Assembly (NCBI GenBank): GCA_021731215.1
Contig: JAKFXU010000434.1
Location: forward strand, 1 to 16,909
DNA: 16,909 bases
Origin: Rhodoferax sp.
GTDB taxonomy: Bacteria; Pseudomonadota; Gammaproteobacteria; Burkholderiales; Burkholderiaceae_C
Direction: 5' to 3'
Part shown: one piece after another, positions 10,109-16,909 of the stretch
Layout of the letters: the number at the start of each line of letters is the position of its first letter
Numbering within the stretch: the first letter of the stretch is position 1
Made by a program: the position numbers and the translations under genes
The notes under the pieces: generated by a model
What the model was told of the DNA's origin: nothing
Seen by the model: the letters and a program-made list of their open reading frames with translations, nothing else
The model's database searches: none

Positions 10109-10147
10109 AAGTTACGCGCCTTATATGACACCTTCGTGTCAGTGCAA
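10109..10147 (-). promoter_or_regulatory. Candidate promoter with Pho-box-like or palindromic operator for the acyltransferase unit
   Basis: There are two overlapping readings on the minus strand. First, TTGCAC (10147-10142) and TATAAG (10125-10120) form a sigma-70 promoter whose 16-bp spacer is an inverted repeat, TGACAC/GTGTCA with a 4-nt loop. Second, CTGACAC (10142-10136), GAAG and GTGTCAT (10131-10125) form a 7-4-7 direct repeat that matches the PhoB half-site CTGTCAT at 5 and 6 of 7 positions; a weak -10, TAACTT, lies 10 bp downstream (10114-10109). Comparison with the stronger boxes at olsB, phoX and ppk favours the second reading, but the site has only two half-sites. Confidence 0.4.
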
Positions 10148-11268: not shown

Positions 11269-12045
11269 GTGAACAGCGACCTGCACGCCTGGATTTTTCT
11301 GCGTGGGCTGACCCGGGAGCGCAGGCACTGGGGCGGCTTCATTGGTCAATTTCAACACGCTCTGTCCGGCAGCCGGGTGGTGGCGCTGGACCTGCCGGGT
11401 AACGGCCGTCTGTATCAGCAGTGCAGCCCTGTGCGCGTCCAGGACCTGGTGGCTCACTGTCGGGCTCAGCTCGCGTTGCGCGGCATTGAGCCACCCTACG
11501 GTTTGCTGGCCATGTCGCTGGGCGCCATGGTCGCGGCGGCCTGGGCCGACGCCCATCCGCAGGAAGTGGCCGCCAATGTGCTCATCAACACCAGCATGCG
11601 ACCCTTCAGTGCGTTTTATCAGCGCCTTCGGCCCCCAAACTATGGCGCTTTGTTGAGGCTGGCTATGTTGGGCGCAGCGCCTGAAGTGTGGGAACGCACA
11701 GTGCTGCGCATGACGAGCAACCTGGCAACCGACGCGGTGCTACCGCGCTGGCTGGCGCTGCGCCAGCAATGCCCGGTCTCGCGCGCCAACGCACTGCGAC
11801 AACTGATCGCCGCCGCCCGCTTTCGCGCGCCGGCGGTCAAGCCTCTTGCGCCTACATTGGTGCTGGCCAGCGAGCAGGATCATCTGGTCTCTGTTGAATG
11901 CTCCAGAGCACTGGCCAGGCATTGGCAGTGCCCCCTGCACGTCCATGCAAGCGCCGGGCACGATCTGCCGCTGGACGACGGTCATTGGGTTGCGGACCAG
12001 GTGCGGGAATGGCTGATGGCGGGCTCCAGTTCCTCTGTCACGTAA
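11269..12045 (+). CDS. Alpha/beta-hydrolase fold protein (258 aa)
   Basis: This is a serine hydrolase with the alpha/beta fold and unknown substrate. Its likely triad is S83 in LLAMSLGAM (first glycine of the usual GxSxG elbow replaced by Ala), D204 in ASEQDHLV and H231 in SAGHDLPLDD. The oxyanion region WIFLRGLTRERRHW and a short lid around FSAFYQRLRPPNY fit small-molecule esterases of the BioH/MenH type. There is no signal peptide. Start is GTG 6 bp after the stop of the M14 gene, implying translational coupling. The last codons and stop fall inside the first repeat of the Pho-box array of olsB. With the M14 enzyme and OlsB it forms a same-strand unit, so lipid or acyl-amino-acid metabolism is a reasonable guess. 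Confidence 0.85.
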   Translation: MNSDLHAWIFLRGLTRERRHWGGFIGQFQHALSGSRVVALDLPGNGRLYQQCSPVRVQDLVAHCRAQLALRGIEPPYGLLAMSLGAMVAAAWADAHPQEVAANVLINTSMRPFSAFYQRLRPPNYGALLRLAMLGAAPEVWERTVLRMTSNLATDAVLPRWLALRQQCPVSRANALRQLIAAARFRAPAVKPLAPTLVLASEQDHLVSVECSRALARHWQCPLHVHASAGHDLPLDDGHWVADQVREWLMAGSSSSVT

Positions 12046-12090
12046 ATGCCATGAAGTTGCCACAGCGTTGTCACGCATGGCGGCCACTAT
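12035..12090 (+). promoter_or_regulatory. Four-half-site Pho box array and -10 upstream of olsB
   Basis: Four heptamers start exactly 11 bp apart: CTGTCAC (12035), ATGCCAT (12046), TTGCCAC (12057) and TTGTCAC (12068), each separated by 4 bp. They match the PhoB half-site CTGTCAT at 6, 5, 4 and 5 of 7 positions. A weak -10 (CACTAT, 12085-12090) begins 10 bp after the last heptamer, the spacing usual in PhoB-activated promoters, where the box replaces the -35. The first heptamer overlaps the final codons of the hydrolase gene. This predicts that olsB has its own promoter, induced by phosphate starvation, inside the operon. Confidence 0.72.
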
Positions 12091-12119
12091 CTGGTAACGC
12101 AACTAACCAGGAGAGAGCA

Positions 12120-12968
12120 ATGAAAGAACTGCCAAACCCTACCTTCCCCTTGTCCCCGGTGTCCTTGCCCGGGGGCTTGCTTCACCGATTTCATGCACGC
12201 CGCCACGGCTTGAGTCAAGCGCCAGTCCCGCCGATTGAGCGCGGCGGTCTTGCGGTTTCGTGGGCCAGGCACATTGACGAAGTCCGGCAAGCGCAGCGCT
12301 TGAGATTCAGGGTCTTCGCTGACGAGATGGGCGCCCGCTTGGATACAACCTTGCCCGGGCACGATGTTGATTTGTTCGATAACTACTGCGAGCACCTTCT
12401 GGTGCGCGATCAACTCACCAGGGAGGTGGTGGGAACCTACCGGGTTCTGACACCAGCGCAAGCCCGGCGCGTGGGCAGTACCTACAGCGATATCGAGTTT
12501 GACCTGACCCGTCTGCGCAGCTTGCGCGAGCGCATGGTCGAACTCGGGCGCAGTTGCGTGCATCGTGACTATCGCCACGGCGGGGTGATCATGACCTTGT
12601 GGGGTGCGCTGGCTGAGTTCATGGTGCGCAACAAACTCGACACCATGATTGGCTGCGCCAGCATTCCCATGCTGCATAACGGCATTGTTAGCGGTGACGT
12701 GGCAGCCAGCATCTGGCACCAGCTCAAACAGAGCCACCTGGCGCCTATCGAACACCATGTGCACCCGCGCCTGCCGCTGCCAGTTGACCAATTGGACAGC
12801 AGCCTGGCAGTAGATCCCCCGGCATTGATCAAAGGTTATTTGCGCCTGGGCGCCAAAATTCTGGGAGCGCCCGCCTGGGATCCGGATTTCAATACGGCTG
12901 ATCTTCCGATGCTGATGCGCATCAATGACTTGCCTCCCCGTTACCGCAAACATTTCCTGGGGATGTAA
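12120..12968 (+). CDS. olsB: L-ornithine N(alpha)-acyltransferase (282 aa)
   Basis: This is a GNAT-fold enzyme of the COG3176 family that transfers a 3-hydroxyacyl chain from acyl carrier protein to the alpha-amino group of ornithine, the first step of ornithine-lipid synthesis. Family blocks are clear: RLRFRVFADEMGA, DLFDNYCEHLLVRD, EVVGTYRVL, MVELGRSCVHRDYRHGG and an IGCASIPM segment. The ATG is preceded by AGGAGAG; the frame is open further upstream, but that region holds the Pho array, so the downstream ATG is right. Some family members were formerly called hemolysins. Ornithine lipid replaces phospholipid under phosphate limitation in several proteobacteria, which fits the four-site Pho box upstream and the candidate olsA 2 kb away. 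Confidence 0.87.
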   Translation: MKELPNPTFPLSPVSLPGGLLHRFHARRHGLSQAPVPPIERGGLAVSWARHIDEVRQAQRLRFRVFADEMGARLDTTLPGHDVDLFDNYCEHLLVRDQLTREVVGTYRVLTPAQARRVGSTYSDIEFDLTRLRSLRERMVELGRSCVHRDYRHGGVIMTLWGALAEFMVRNKLDTMIGCASIPMLHNGIVSGDVAASIWHQLKQSHLAPIEHHVHPRLPLPVDQLDSSLAVDPPALIKGYLRLGAKILGAPAWDPDFNTADLPMLMRINDLPPRYRKHFLGM

Positions 12969-13022
12969 TGCGGGTGGCCTTCGACGCCATGGGGCCGTGG
13001 AGCAGCGGCTGCACAGCCGTCG

Positions 13023-13110
13023 ATGTCGATGATTTGGTACCGCCATTGTTATCTCGGATTTGCATCTGGGCACCCCCGGTTGCCAGGGCAGTGCCCTCCT
13101 GCGTTTCCGG
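13023..13110 (+). pseudogene. Remnant of an LpxH-like (UDP-2,3-diacylglucosamine pyrophosphatase family) metallophosphoesterase
   Basis: A short reading frame (13033-13149) contains IVISDLHLGTPGCQGSALLRF, encoded at 13045-13107. This is the N-terminal signature of COG2908 calcineurin-like phosphoesterases, including the metal-binding D and H of SDLHLG. Immediately before it, the frame with ATG at 13023 ends in WYR, the usual residues preceding this motif, but in a different frame; a shift of +1 or -2 at 13044 joins them. After LLRF the similarity stops and a TAA follows at 13147, so most of the protein, including the downstream GDxxD and GNHD motifs, is missing. It lies 55 bp after olsB on the same strand, so it probably was the next gene of that operon. 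Confidence 0.62.
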
Positions 13111-13147
13111 CGACTATCGCCATCTATATTGCCACGGAGGGGTCAAT

Positions 13148-13229: not shown

Positions 13230-15428
13230 TCAGGTGCCGATCTTGCCGCCGTCGTTCTTGGTGATGACGATGGTGGCCGTGCGGGGCCGCTTGCCGGCGC
13301 CGTAACCGGCGTTGCTGGGCCACTGGCTGGTGTACTTGGTCGGGTCGGCGATGTCGGCCATCTTGGTGCCCTCACCGGGGTGCTGGATGTTGATGAACAT
13401 GGCCTTGCCGTCGGGCGTCTCGCACAGACCGGTGATTTCGCAATCCTTGGCACCGACCAGGAAACGTTTGAGCGTATTGGCCGTGGGGGCCTTGCCGACG
13501 TAGGTGTCCACGCTCAGCGTGCTGCCATCGGTCTTGGTGTAGCTCAGTGTCTTCTTGCCGCCGTCGCCTACCTGGCCCGGCTGCGCGGCCAGCATCATGC
13601 TGTTGGTGACGTCGGTATAGGCGCCGTCGTCGGTCTGGATCCACATGATGCCGGTGTAGGGGCTGAACACCAGGCCGTCGGGGCTGGAGAAGTCCTGATC
13701 GCCGGTCAGATTGGACCAGTTGACTTTGGCGGCATCGGCGTCCGTCTGGGCGCCGAAGGCGTACACGTCCCAGGTGAAGCTGGTGGCAGCGGAGCCGGCC
13801 GCGCCTTCCTTCATGCGCAGGATGTGGCCGTTGGGGTTGCCGTTCTGGGCCGTGGCGCTCTTCATGTCGGTGTAAACGCGCGGGTTGGGGCTGTCGGGGG
13901 CCAACTGGCTGGCGCTGGCGGGCTCGACGCGGCGGTTGCTGTTGTTGGTCAGCGTGAAATAGACCTCGCCATTGGCTGGGTTGACACCGCTCCACTCGGG
14001 ACGGTCCATCTTGGTGGCGCCCACCGCGTCGGCGGCGATGCGGGCATTGACGCACACGTCGGCCTGGTCGGCAAACACATAGCCGCCATAGCTGGCAATC
14101 GTGGGGTTGCTGATGGACAGTTCCAGCCACAAGCCCGAGCCGTCGTTGTTGTACTTGGCAACGTACAGTTTGCCGCTGTCGAGGTACTTGTCGCCGGTGG
14201 CCATGGCGCTGATGGGACTGGCATCGGCGGCGTCCCAGTTGGCGGCGCTGACAAACTTGTAGATGTACTCGTTGCGCGCGTCGTCACCCATGTAGACGGC
14301 GAGCGGCTTGCCGACCGCCGGGACGCTGAAGGAGGCGCTCTCATGGGCGTAACGGCCCATCGCGGTGCGTTTCTTGGCGGTGCGGGTCTTGTCGTAGGCG
14401 TCAATCTCAACGATGTAGCCCATGGTGTTGAGCTCGTTGCGGTAGTCGTCGCTGCCGTCGGTGCTGGTGCCGAGCTTGCTATTGTCCCAGCGCGCGTACT
14501 TGTCGGCCGTGCCACCGGTCTGCCAGCCATGGCGCGAGGCGGCGCCCTGGTTGCGGCCGTAGCGTTTGAGCGCAGTGACGCTCTTGTCATTGTTGCGCGC
14601 CGTATCGTCGGTGCTGTTGCGGAAGAAGTAGCCAGCCCAGTTTTCCTCACCGGTCAGGAAGCTGCCCCACGGCGTCTTGCCGGTGCCGCAGTTGTTGAGC
14701 GTGCCGCGGGTGCGGGTGCCGCTGGTCGAGTACTTGGTGACCAGCAGCGCATTGCCGCGCGCCGGACCGGCGAGCTCGATGTCGCTCAGGGGCGTGAGGC
14801 GGAAATTGAACGCCGAGCTTTGCACCGTGGCCCACTTGCCGCTGGTCTTCTTGACCTCGACCACCGAAATACCGTGAATCGCGATTTCCTTGTCCACTTC
14901 GACCGCCGGGCGCGGGAGCGTGGCCGTGCCGCCATTGGCGTGGATGAAGAAAGAAGTCAGTGTCTCATCGGTGGTCGCTTCATGGTTGACCGCCAGCAGG
15001 CCGCGCTCGATAGCGGAGGTGGAAGGCTTGCCGCTGGCATCCAGGCCGAACCATTCCATGCCGTCATGGTGGTCGCCGGCGCGGTTCTCAAAGTCAGTGT
15101 CGGTGCCGTCGTTCTTGTAGGCCGGGGTGGTGGCCGTGAGCGGGTCGCCCAGGGCGTAGATCACGCTGGCGGTGTAGCCGGCCGGCACGGTCACGGTATC
15201 GGCCAGGCTCTTGGCCACGGCGCTGAAACCCAGCAGCGTGGCGGCGGGCGCCGCAGCGACGTCGCCGCAGGCCGCAACGCCCAGGCCACCCAGCATGGCA
15301 GTGCCCACGGTGCCGACGCTGCCGCGCAGCAGACCGCGCCGGCTCAGGCGGGCCTGCAGCACCGAGTCGAAGCTCGGGTTGGCGCTAGTGTTGGAGTTTT
15401 CATCGTTGAAGTCGATTTGATCGATCAT
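13230..15428 (-). CDS. phoX: PhoX-family (DUF839) alkaline phosphatase, Tat-exported (732 aa)
   Basis: This is a secreted Ca/Fe-dependent alkaline phosphatase that releases phosphate from organic monoesters. The N-terminus has a twin-arginine signal, SRRGLLRG with R30 and R31, a hydrophobic segment and VAAC (C54), which could also act as a lipobox. Family blocks follow: LLAVNHE (H149, E150), the LNNCGTGKTPWGSFLTGEENW region with C247 (probable iron-bridging cysteine) and E261-E262, HESASF, GDDARNEYIYKF, MDRPEWSGVNP, and FSSPDGLVFSPYTGIMWIQTDDG. CEITGLCETPDGKAMFINIQHPGE lies near the end. AGGAAA about 7 nt before the ATG supports the start. It is divergent from ppk; a four-site Pho array precedes it. 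A long reading frame on the opposite strand is a codon-bias shadow. Confidence 0.94.
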   Translation of the reverse strand: MIDQIDFNDENSNTSANPSFDSVLQARLSRRGLLRGSVGTVGTAMLGGLGVAACGDVAAAPAATLLGFSAVAKSLADTVTVPAGYTASVIYALGDPLTATTPAYKNDGTDTDFENRAGDHHDGMEWFGLDASGKPSTSAIERGLLAVNHEATTDETLTSFFIHANGGTATLPRPAVEVDKEIAIHGISVVEVKKTSGKWATVQSSAFNFRLTPLSDIELAGPARGNALLVTKYSTSGTRTRGTLNNCGTGKTPWGSFLTGEENWAGYFFRNSTDDTARNNDKSVTALKRYGRNQGAASRHGWQTGGTADKYARWDNSKLGTSTDGSDDYRNELNTMGYIVEIDAYDKTRTAKKRTAMGRYAHESASFSVPAVGKPLAVYMGDDARNEYIYKFVSAANWDAADASPISAMATGDKYLDSGKLYVAKYNNDGSGLWLELSISNPTIASYGGYVFADQADVCVNARIAADAVGATKMDRPEWSGVNPANGEVYFTLTNNSNRRVEPASASQLAPDSPNPRVYTDMKSATAQNGNPNGHILRMKEGAAGSAATSFTWDVYAFGAQTDADAAKVNWSNLTGDQDFSSPDGLVFSPYTGIMWIQTDDGAYTDVTNSMMLAAQPGQVGDGGKKTLSYTKTDGSTLSVDTYVGKAPTANTLKRFLVGAKDCEITGLCETPDGKAMFINIQHPGEGTKMADIADPTKYTSQWPSNAGYGAGKRPRTATIVITKNDGGKIGT

Positions 15429-15474: not shown

Positions 15475-15530
15475 ACGATAGGGACGCACTGTGACACCCA
15501 TGTGAAAAACGGGTGATCGATTGGTGACGC
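15475..15530 (-). promoter_or_regulatory. Four-half-site Pho box array and -10 of phoX
   Basis: On the minus strand four heptamers ending in TCAC lie exactly 11 bp apart: GCGTCAC, CGATCAC, TTTTCAC and GTGTCAC. The complementary GTGA of each starts at 15524, 15513, 15502 and 15491 on the plus strand. Matches to CTGTCAT are 4, 4, 4 and 5 of 7. TATCGT (15480-15475) begins exactly 10 bp after the last heptamer and serves as -10, about 47 bp before the start codon. This is the layout of a PhoB-activated promoter. Confidence 0.72.
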
Positions 15531-15614: not shown

Positions 15615-15668
15615 CTGTCACACGACTGTCATTAAACCGGTAAACAATCAGTCATCTATTTGTAATAT
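15615..15668 (+). promoter_or_regulatory. Two-half-site Pho box and promoter of ppk
   Basis: CTGTCAC (15615-15621), ACGA and CTGTCAT (15626-15632) form an almost perfect 18-bp Pho box, matching 13 of 14 half-site positions. AACAAT (15643-15648) starts 10 bp downstream and is the expected -10; TAATAT (15663-15668) is a better hexamer but further away than usual. The box is 52 bp before the ppk ATG. With the phoX array it forms a divergent PhoB-controlled intergenic region; nothing else is recognisable in the roughly 80 bp between the two arrays. Confidence 0.75.
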
Positions 15669-15684: not shown

Positions 15685-16909
15685 ATGCCTTCTTCCTCTC
15701 GTCAGTTGCAACTGACACAGGCTTTTCCAGGTGTGGCGCTGCTTGATCGCGACCACAGCATTCTCGCGTTCAACGAACGGGTGCTGGACTGGGCCTACCG
15801 TAAGGACGTGCCCCTGCTCGAGCGCCTGCGTTACCTGTGCATTGTCTCTTCCAATCTGGACGAATTTTTTGAGGTCAGGGCCGAACCCCATTTGGTGGCG
15901 AACCAGCGTCAAGACCACAAGGGTCAATTCACGGTCGAATCGTTTGAGCGCCTGGCCGATGCCGCGCACACCCTGGTGGCGCGCCAGTACGCGCTGTACA
16001 ACGATGACTTGATGCCCGCGCTGGAAAGGCAAGGTGTCAAAGTGGTCGCTCATGGCGAGCGCAATGGGGCACAGCGGCGCTGGGTCAAACAGTATTTCGA
16101 GCGTGAAGTCCGTCCCTTGTTGCTTCCGGTCGGGCTGGATCCGTCGCACCCGTTTCCGCAAGTGGCCAACAAGTCGCTCAATTTCATCGTGCGCCTGGGC
16201 GGGCGCGATGCGTTCGGGCGGGAAAACGACATTGCCATTGTCAAGGTGCCGCGCGTGTTGCCGCGCATGATCCGCATGCCCGACAAGCTGGCTGGAGGCG
16301 CTGACTTTTTTGTCTCGCTGTCGAGCGTCATCCGCGCACATCTGGCGGAATTGTTTCCTGGCCGCGAGGTTGGACAGTTTTCACAGTTTCGGGTCACCCG
16401 CCACTCTGATCTTGCGGTCGATGAAGAGGATGTCAAGAACTTGCGCACCGCCCTGCGCCAGGGCCTGCAACACCGCCATTTTGGCCAGGCAGTGCGGCTG
16501 GAGGTGTCGGCCGGGTGTTCTGAGTATCTTTCAGCTTTTCTGCTCAAACAATTCGATTTGCCGGACCCGGCCCTGTACCGTGTCCCCGGGCCCGTCAACC
16601 TGGTTCGATTGACTCAATTGGTCGATCTGGTAGATGCACCGCAACTGTGCTTTCCTTCTTATAAGGCGTGTTATCCGACCCAGCTCACGCCCGGGGTATC
16701 GTTCTTTGAGCGGCTCAAGCAGGGCGATGTTTTCATCCACCAGCCGTTTGAGAGTTTTGGCGGCGTCCTGGCGTTTTTGCGCGAAGCGGTGCATGACCCG
16801 CAGGTGCTGGCGATCAAGCAGACCATCTACCGCACCGGCACCGACTCCGAGCTGATGGACCTGCTGCGCGAGGCCGTGCGTCGCGGCAAGGAAGTGACCG
16901 TGGTGGTGG
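15685..16909 (+). CDS. ppk: Polyphosphate kinase 1, 3' end missing (408 codons visible)
   Basis: This enzyme makes polyphosphate reversibly from ATP. The frame is open from the ATG to the end of the window. Visible features are the N-terminal FNERVLDWA and RLRYLCIVSSNLDEFFEVR blocks (N57 corresponds to the ATP-binding Asn45 of E. coli), the middle-domain RPLLLPVGLDPSHPFPQVANKSLNF region, and the start of the first catalytic C domain with FERLKQGDVFIHQPFESF and AIKQTIYRTGTDSELMDLL. The sequence stops at GKEVTVVV, before the phosphorylated histidine. The N-terminus is about 12 residues longer than in E. coli. No good Shine-Dalgarno sequence precedes the ATG. A near-consensus Pho box upstream and divergent phoX point to phosphate control. 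Confidence 0.96.
   Translation, partial: MPSSSRQLQLTQAFPGVALLDRDHSILAFNERVLDWAYRKDVPLLERLRYLCIVSSNLDEFFEVRAEPHLVANQRQDHKGQFTVESFERLADAAHTLVARQYALYNDDLMPALERQGVKVVAHGERNGAQRRWVKQYFEREVRPLLLPVGLDPSHPFPQVANKSLNFIVRLGGRDAFGRENDIAIVKVPRVLPRMIRMPDKLAGGADFFVSLSSVIRAHLAELFPGREVGQFSQFRVTRHSDLAVDEEDVKNLRTALRQGLQHRHFGQAVRLEVSAGCSEYLSAFLLKQFDLPDPALYRVPGPVNLVRLTQLVDLVDAPQLCFPSYKACYPTQLTPGVSFFERLKQGDVFIHQPFESFGGVLAFLREAVHDPQVLAIKQTIYRTGTDSELMDLLREAVRRGKEVTVVV

Follow-up and report, generated by a model that had tools for sequence, protein, structure and literature searches.

A predicted PhoB-dependent promoter with four direct repeats upstream of an olsB-type gene in Rhodoferax sp.

Layout of the olsB locus

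The stretch of DNA analysed here (the window) comprises 16,909 nucleotides of contig JAKFXU010000434.1 from a Rhodoferax sp. assembly (GCA_021731215.1). An N-acyltransferase gene of the olsB type (positions 12120..12968, forward strand; 282 aa) lies in it downstream of an alpha/beta hydrolase ORF (11269..12045, forward strand). The product of the former matches the Acetyltransf_5 family above its cut-off (Pfam PF13444, E 7.9e-35), and its best NCBIfam matches are OlsB models. The scores are below the equivalog cut-offs of these models (158.8 versus 350 and 148.8 versus 320 bits), whose tags, RHOCB and BRUA, presumably stand for Rhodobacter and Brucella; the substrate is therefore assigned by inference, and the protein is predicted to form lyso-ornithine lipid. 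The hydrolase was considered as a candidate OlsI and rejected (23.1 bits versus 385).

Directly after olsB lies a remnant of a metallophosphoesterase gene (12968..13125, forward strand) with pieces in different frames; the matched stretch is 13000-13125, and the start at 12968 is our reading of the sequence. Intact versions follow olsB in many relatives (for example, in locus L032), and a second gene of this type, 47% identical, is present elsewhere in the same genome. We take this gene to be plcP and the glycosyltransferase gene found near olsB in relatives to be agt. Family searches matched metallophosphoesterase and GT4-type glycosyltransferase models, and no PlcP model was matched by the plcP-like gene in these searches. 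In the window, an alkaline phosphatase gene, phoX (13230..15428, reverse strand, convergent with olsB; PF05787, E 1e-126), sits between the plcP-like remnant and the polyphosphate kinase gene ppk1 (15685..16909, forward strand), which is incomplete, running to the contig end.

Four heptamers of the Pho box type precede olsB on the forward strand: CTGTCAC (12035..12041), ATGCCAT (12046..12052), TTGCCAC (12057..12063) and TTGTCAC (12068..12074). They are separated by the linkers GTAA, GAAG and AGCG, so that the period is exactly 11 bp. A spacer of 10 bp, GCATGGCGGC, leads from the fourth heptamer to a −10-like hexamer, CACTAT (12085..12090), of the form xAxxxT. A probable ribosome-binding site, AGGAGA (12109..12114), read from the sequence, and the ATG of olsB at 12120 follow. 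The hexamer located 17 bp upstream of the −10 element, ACAGCG (12062-12067), does not resemble TTGACA, and by this reading the promoter has no −35 element of its own. The sequence-only reading of this DNA had placed the four heptamers, the −10-like hexamer and the ribosome-binding site as just described, and the sequence bears this out. It had also stated that the first heptamer doubles as the last codons and stop of the hydrolase gene. The hydrolase ORF ends with TCT GTC ACG TAA (Ser-Val-Thr), and the heptamer does contribute to the last sense codons; the stop (12043-12045), however, falls in the first linker.

The array scores 26.9 with a matrix built from ten Pho heptamers of the E. coli type. 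The best of 300 windows generated by a first-order Markov model and searched on both strands scores 18.1, and none of the 300 reaches the score of the array. The outer two heptamers are strong (9.9 and 9.4) and the inner two weak (3.3 and 4.4). In the genome assembly (3.18 Mb, 507 contigs, 84.67% complete), three TGNCAY units at an 11-bp period without mismatches occur at a single site, the olsB array, in two overlapping registers. With two mismatches allowed, the three-unit pattern occurs at 30 places, compared to 7 for a reversed control. Twenty of the 30 places were turned into loci and, besides the window, contigs C63 (pst), C283, C360 and C51 were inspected further; among the candidates for this pattern on the latter three contigs nothing convincing was found. 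Elsewhere in the window, between an olsA-like gene and an M14 peptidase gene, there is an inverted repeat, TGACAC-GAAG-GTGTCA (10125-10142, reverse strand), which looks palindromic, unlike a direct-repeat Pho box.

The element upstream of olsB relatives

OlsB relatives are present in 126 of 150 genomes of the family. For comparison of upstream regions we used the best 30 loci of the family set, including the genome under study, and the best 80 from named genomes, leaving out 11 of the 80, in which the match begins inside the protein. The 99 loci kept, all with matches from residue 1, contain 95 distinct upstream regions, that of the window included. Since the loci share descent, counts over them do not represent independent events; they were also selected as top matches.

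A four-unit array scoring at least 8 with the heptamer matrix is present within 300 bp of olsB in 76 of the 95 regions. The background for this score is 61 of 4142 tiles on both strands, and 13 of the 95 upstream regions carry such an array on their other strand. The 76 elements were selected by the 40-bp array alone, with no part played by the −10 hexamer. Nevertheless, all 76 have A at 11 positions past the fourth heptamer, and 75 have T at +15; with one representative per cluster at 70% identity the counts are 46/46 and 45/46. The remaining downstream positions are all at or below 0.73 bit. The information content is about 1.0-2.0 bits at the G, C and A positions of the heptamers, compared to 0.09-0.65 across the linkers and 0.06-0.27 across the spacer; because the arrays were picked with the heptamer matrix, the apparent conservation of the heptamers is inflated, while that of the −10 hexamer is unaffected. 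The same spacing prevails among 55 further strong two-unit boxes in these loci, including those heading phoX-olsB gene pairs: xAxxxT stands at 10 bp in 35 of them, while the other offsets between 4 and 21 have 0 to 9 cases each.

A 56-bp model covering the four heptamers and the −10 hexamer was built from 75 elements with the window held out. The window element scores 47.7 bits with this model, and the best match in 99 base-shuffled loci (761 kb) scores 6.1. Outside the 2.45-kb upstream regions, 20 matches of at least 15 bits were found in 1.45 million positions; in L078, L073, L050 and L062 a match lies immediately 5′ of ppk1. With each cluster left out in turn, the element was found at most 300 bp from olsB in 78 of the 95 regions and, counting 16 more in which it lies beyond 300 bp, within 2.4 kb in 94. 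The 95th region, L005, is cut short; in L059, a longer duplicate of it, an array is present with a −10 hexamer at −2072. The weakest near matches score 21.8 to 25.9 bits and include L104 (23.4), with degenerate heptamers.

The 17 regions without a near element fall into two groups. In 11, a same-strand phoX-like gene ends just before olsB and the element lies about 2.05-2.15 kb upstream (L003, L004, L005, counted through L059, L006, L020, L022, L024, L047, L078, L092 and L096). In the other six the element is 410-660 bp upstream. The olsB gene either has its own predicted Pho promoter or follows a phoX-like gene that has one, which suggests that phosphate control is kept while gene order changes. 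Two arrangements were noted in passing. In L012, L042 and L044 an ORF of some 166-203 aa lies between the Pho element and olsB or overlaps them. In L082, L084 and L087, of the Limnohabitans type, a Pho-like 56-bp element (24-32 bits) is found on the reverse strand about 747 bp upstream of olsB, pointing away from it.

In a chosen sample of 20 divergent family members, with OlsB proteins 61-69% identical, the element is present in all 20, at −79 to −95 in 19 and at −2090 in one. The heptamer matrix alone finds an array in 19 of the 20, and xAxxxT stands at 10 bp in each of these 19. A recurrence of the 11-bp heptamer series upstream of olsB orthologues, expected from the sequence-only reading, is thus observed in both samples. 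The third heptamer deviates from the consensus at its fourth position. This base, C in the window and in 17 of 46 cluster representatives, is T in only 6 of the 46; A or C is found there in 40 of the 46, compared to 3 of the 20 divergent members.

The genes around the element vary. The hydrolase adjoins olsB in one of 69 named loci, some of which have little upstream sequence, and the array is therefore independent of the hydrolase. The earlier suggestion of a dedicated internal promoter is supported as regards the promoter, which is conserved and has a fixed −10 hexamer, while “internal” describes the gene order of this genome. Downstream, 62 unique loci have 4 kb or more of sequence past olsB. 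A plcP-like gene is found in 41 of them, a glycosyltransferase gene in 33 and ppk1 in 42; 50 have at least one of the three, 28 have the full set and 12 lack them all.

PhoB and other Pho elements of the genome

At E 0.001 or better, the PhoB model matches 46 regions of the genome, and a single protein exceeds the curated cut-off (322.1 versus 296.2 bits). In its DNA-binding domain this protein closely matches solved PhoB chains, which we take to be those of E. coli; a stretch that is presumably the recognition helix reads RTVDVHVKRLREAL compared to RTVDVHIRRLRKAL. The gene lies on contig C63 together with ORFs that we read as phoR, phoU, pstB, pstA, pstC and pstS. The product of the last, pstS-like one scores far below the PstS family cut-off (39.1 versus 205 bits).

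In this genome, xAxxxT stands exactly 10 bp past the elements that precede olsB, phoX, ppk1, the pstS-like gene and a small gene upstream of the latter. The phoX element (15475..15530, reverse strand) has four heptamers and the −10 hexamer TATCGT, and scores 19.6 bits with the 56-bp model. A two-heptamer Pho box with the −10 hexamer AACAAT precedes ppk1 (15615..15648, forward strand). For ppk1 and the pstS-like gene the 10-bp spacing follows from a two-unit reading; the second ppk1 pair and the third pstS unit do not give xAxxxT at 10 bp. The second pair, CAGTCAT and TTGTAAT, is found at 15649-15666, just 3′ of the ppk1 box; it starts 34 bp from the first unit of the box and therefore does not keep the 11-bp phase. 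The small gene that lies upstream of the pstS-like one is lipoprotein-like and encodes 104 aa (L141, 6055-6369, reverse strand); it has its own three-unit Pho element and the −10 hexamer GAAACT.

Proposed promoter mechanism and known systems

Taken together, the array, its conservation, the kept −10 hexamer at its fixed spacing, the presence of PhoB in the genome and the Pho boxes with 10-bp spacing before phoX, ppk1 and the pstS-like gene make a PhoB-dependent promoter the most likely reading. We conclude from these sequence features that 12035-12090 is very probably a class II promoter of olsB that is predicted to be bound by PhoB and to respond to phosphate. During phosphate starvation, phosphorylated PhoB would line up head to tail on the four direct repeats of 11 bp, probably with two dimers in all. 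The bound protein would replace the missing −35 element and bring σ70 polymerase to the −10 hexamer at 12085-12090, and the transcript would start a few bases 3′ of it, at about 12097. An increased amount of OlsB could then yield a phosphorus-free ornithine lipid able to take the place of phospholipid.

Three other explanations were weighed. The array might serve another response regulator of the OmpR/PhoB family with an 11-bp direct-repeat site, and the 46 regions matching the PhoB model leave room for one. However, this layout is also found before phoX, ppk1 and the pstS-like gene, and the contig with the pstS-like gene encodes the only protein that passes the PhoB cut-off, whose DNA-binding domain closely resembles that of solved PhoB chains; a different regulator is improbable. 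Slighter still is the chance that an ordinary σ70 promoter lies next to a relic repeat, with olsB constitutive or read from upstream hydrolase genes. Read-through is conceivable from an ORF that ends inside the array, and constitutive formation of ornithine lipids is reported for Burkholderia sensu stricto (PMC7814305). Yet the heptamers stand out in information content from linkers and spacer, a contrast inflated by selection, and the hydrolase is beside olsB in just the one named locus.

Least credible of all is that the similarity goes back only to common descent, either of hydrolase coding sequence or of upstream DNA without a function. The closest relative, L032, is indeed identical to the window in the first 28 bases of the array, but the retention of the −10 positions across the 46 clusters at 70% identity already contradicts this explanation; in addition, the hydrolase is rarely the upstream gene, and the element heads the gene pair where a phoX-like gene precedes olsB.

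The PhoB-dependent promoter can be given a more specific form, which we put forward as a doubtful extension. The olsB promoter may be a fixed 56-bp unit (four heptamers, a 10-bp spacer and xAxxxT) that is kept across the sampled family and needs two PhoB dimers. The off-consensus third heptamer in the lineage of the window might lower affinity, so that lipid remodelling would set in only at deeper phosphate starvation than expression of phoX or pst genes. In practical terms, heptamers every 11 bp followed after 10 bp by xAxxxT provide a clear, testable rule by which phosphate-starvation genes can be sought in Rhodoferax and related bacteria. The predicted promoter would also tie ornithine-lipid synthesis in these bacteria to phosphate supply, as in other proteobacteria.

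In E. coli, Pho promoters have a 10-bp distance to the −10 element and lack a −35 element. Yuan et al. reportedly made PhoB predictions in twelve proteobacteria in 2006. A limited literature search found nothing specific to Rhodoferax or Comamonadaceae on either olsB or Pho boxes. The sequence-only reading had described PhoB control of ornithine-lipid synthesis as known in some other proteobacteria, and this agrees with two papers: a prediction in Burkholderia sensu lato (PMC7814305) and regulation by PhoR of olsB expression and aminolipid formation in A. baumannii (PMC11828411). It had also predicted the promoter for a betaproteobacterium, a setting that is not new in view of the former paper. 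In PMC7814305, two matrices were applied to 43 Burkholderia sensu lato genomes: the first predicts Pho boxes before olsB in 21 of them, the second in every one (data not shown there). The paper also states that ornithine lipids replace phospholipids in P. xenovorans in low phosphate (data likewise not shown there). Since Pho control of olsB is already in the literature, the PhoB-olsB mechanism is known, and the Rhodoferax promoter is a further well-supported case of it, well conserved in relatives.

The Burkholderia sensu lato case (PMC7814305) shares the gene, the betaproteobacterial setting and the proposed regulator; it differs in relying on an 18-bp matrix for Burkholderia and allies, whereas four repeats and a −10 hexamer at fixed distance are found here in Rhodoferax and relatives. 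According to PMC11828411, Acinetobacter has a Pho box before olsB and none before olsA; the former feature is held in common, but Acinetobacter is a gammaproteobacterium, and the comparison there is to a two-repeat consensus only. The E. coli Pho box (PMC4415409) is built of direct repeats of 11 bp, in each of which seven bases are well conserved; its motif is CTGTCAT, and PhoB effector domains bind it in tandem. Promoters of this kind, used by PhoB with σ70, resemble the olsB promoter in the direct repeats and CTGTCAT-type motif. The olsB array differs from them in its four repeats in series, the xAxxxT form of its −10 hexamer and its weaker inner heptamers. Finally, marine bacteria have plcP gene clusters with predicted Pho boxes, with plcP beside glycosyltransferase genes in some types (PMC4796936), and are alike in having Pho-linked genes of lipid remodelling; in the family studied here, in contrast, olsB is often followed by a plcP-like gene, a glycosyltransferase gene and ppk1, with plcP reduced to a remnant in the window.
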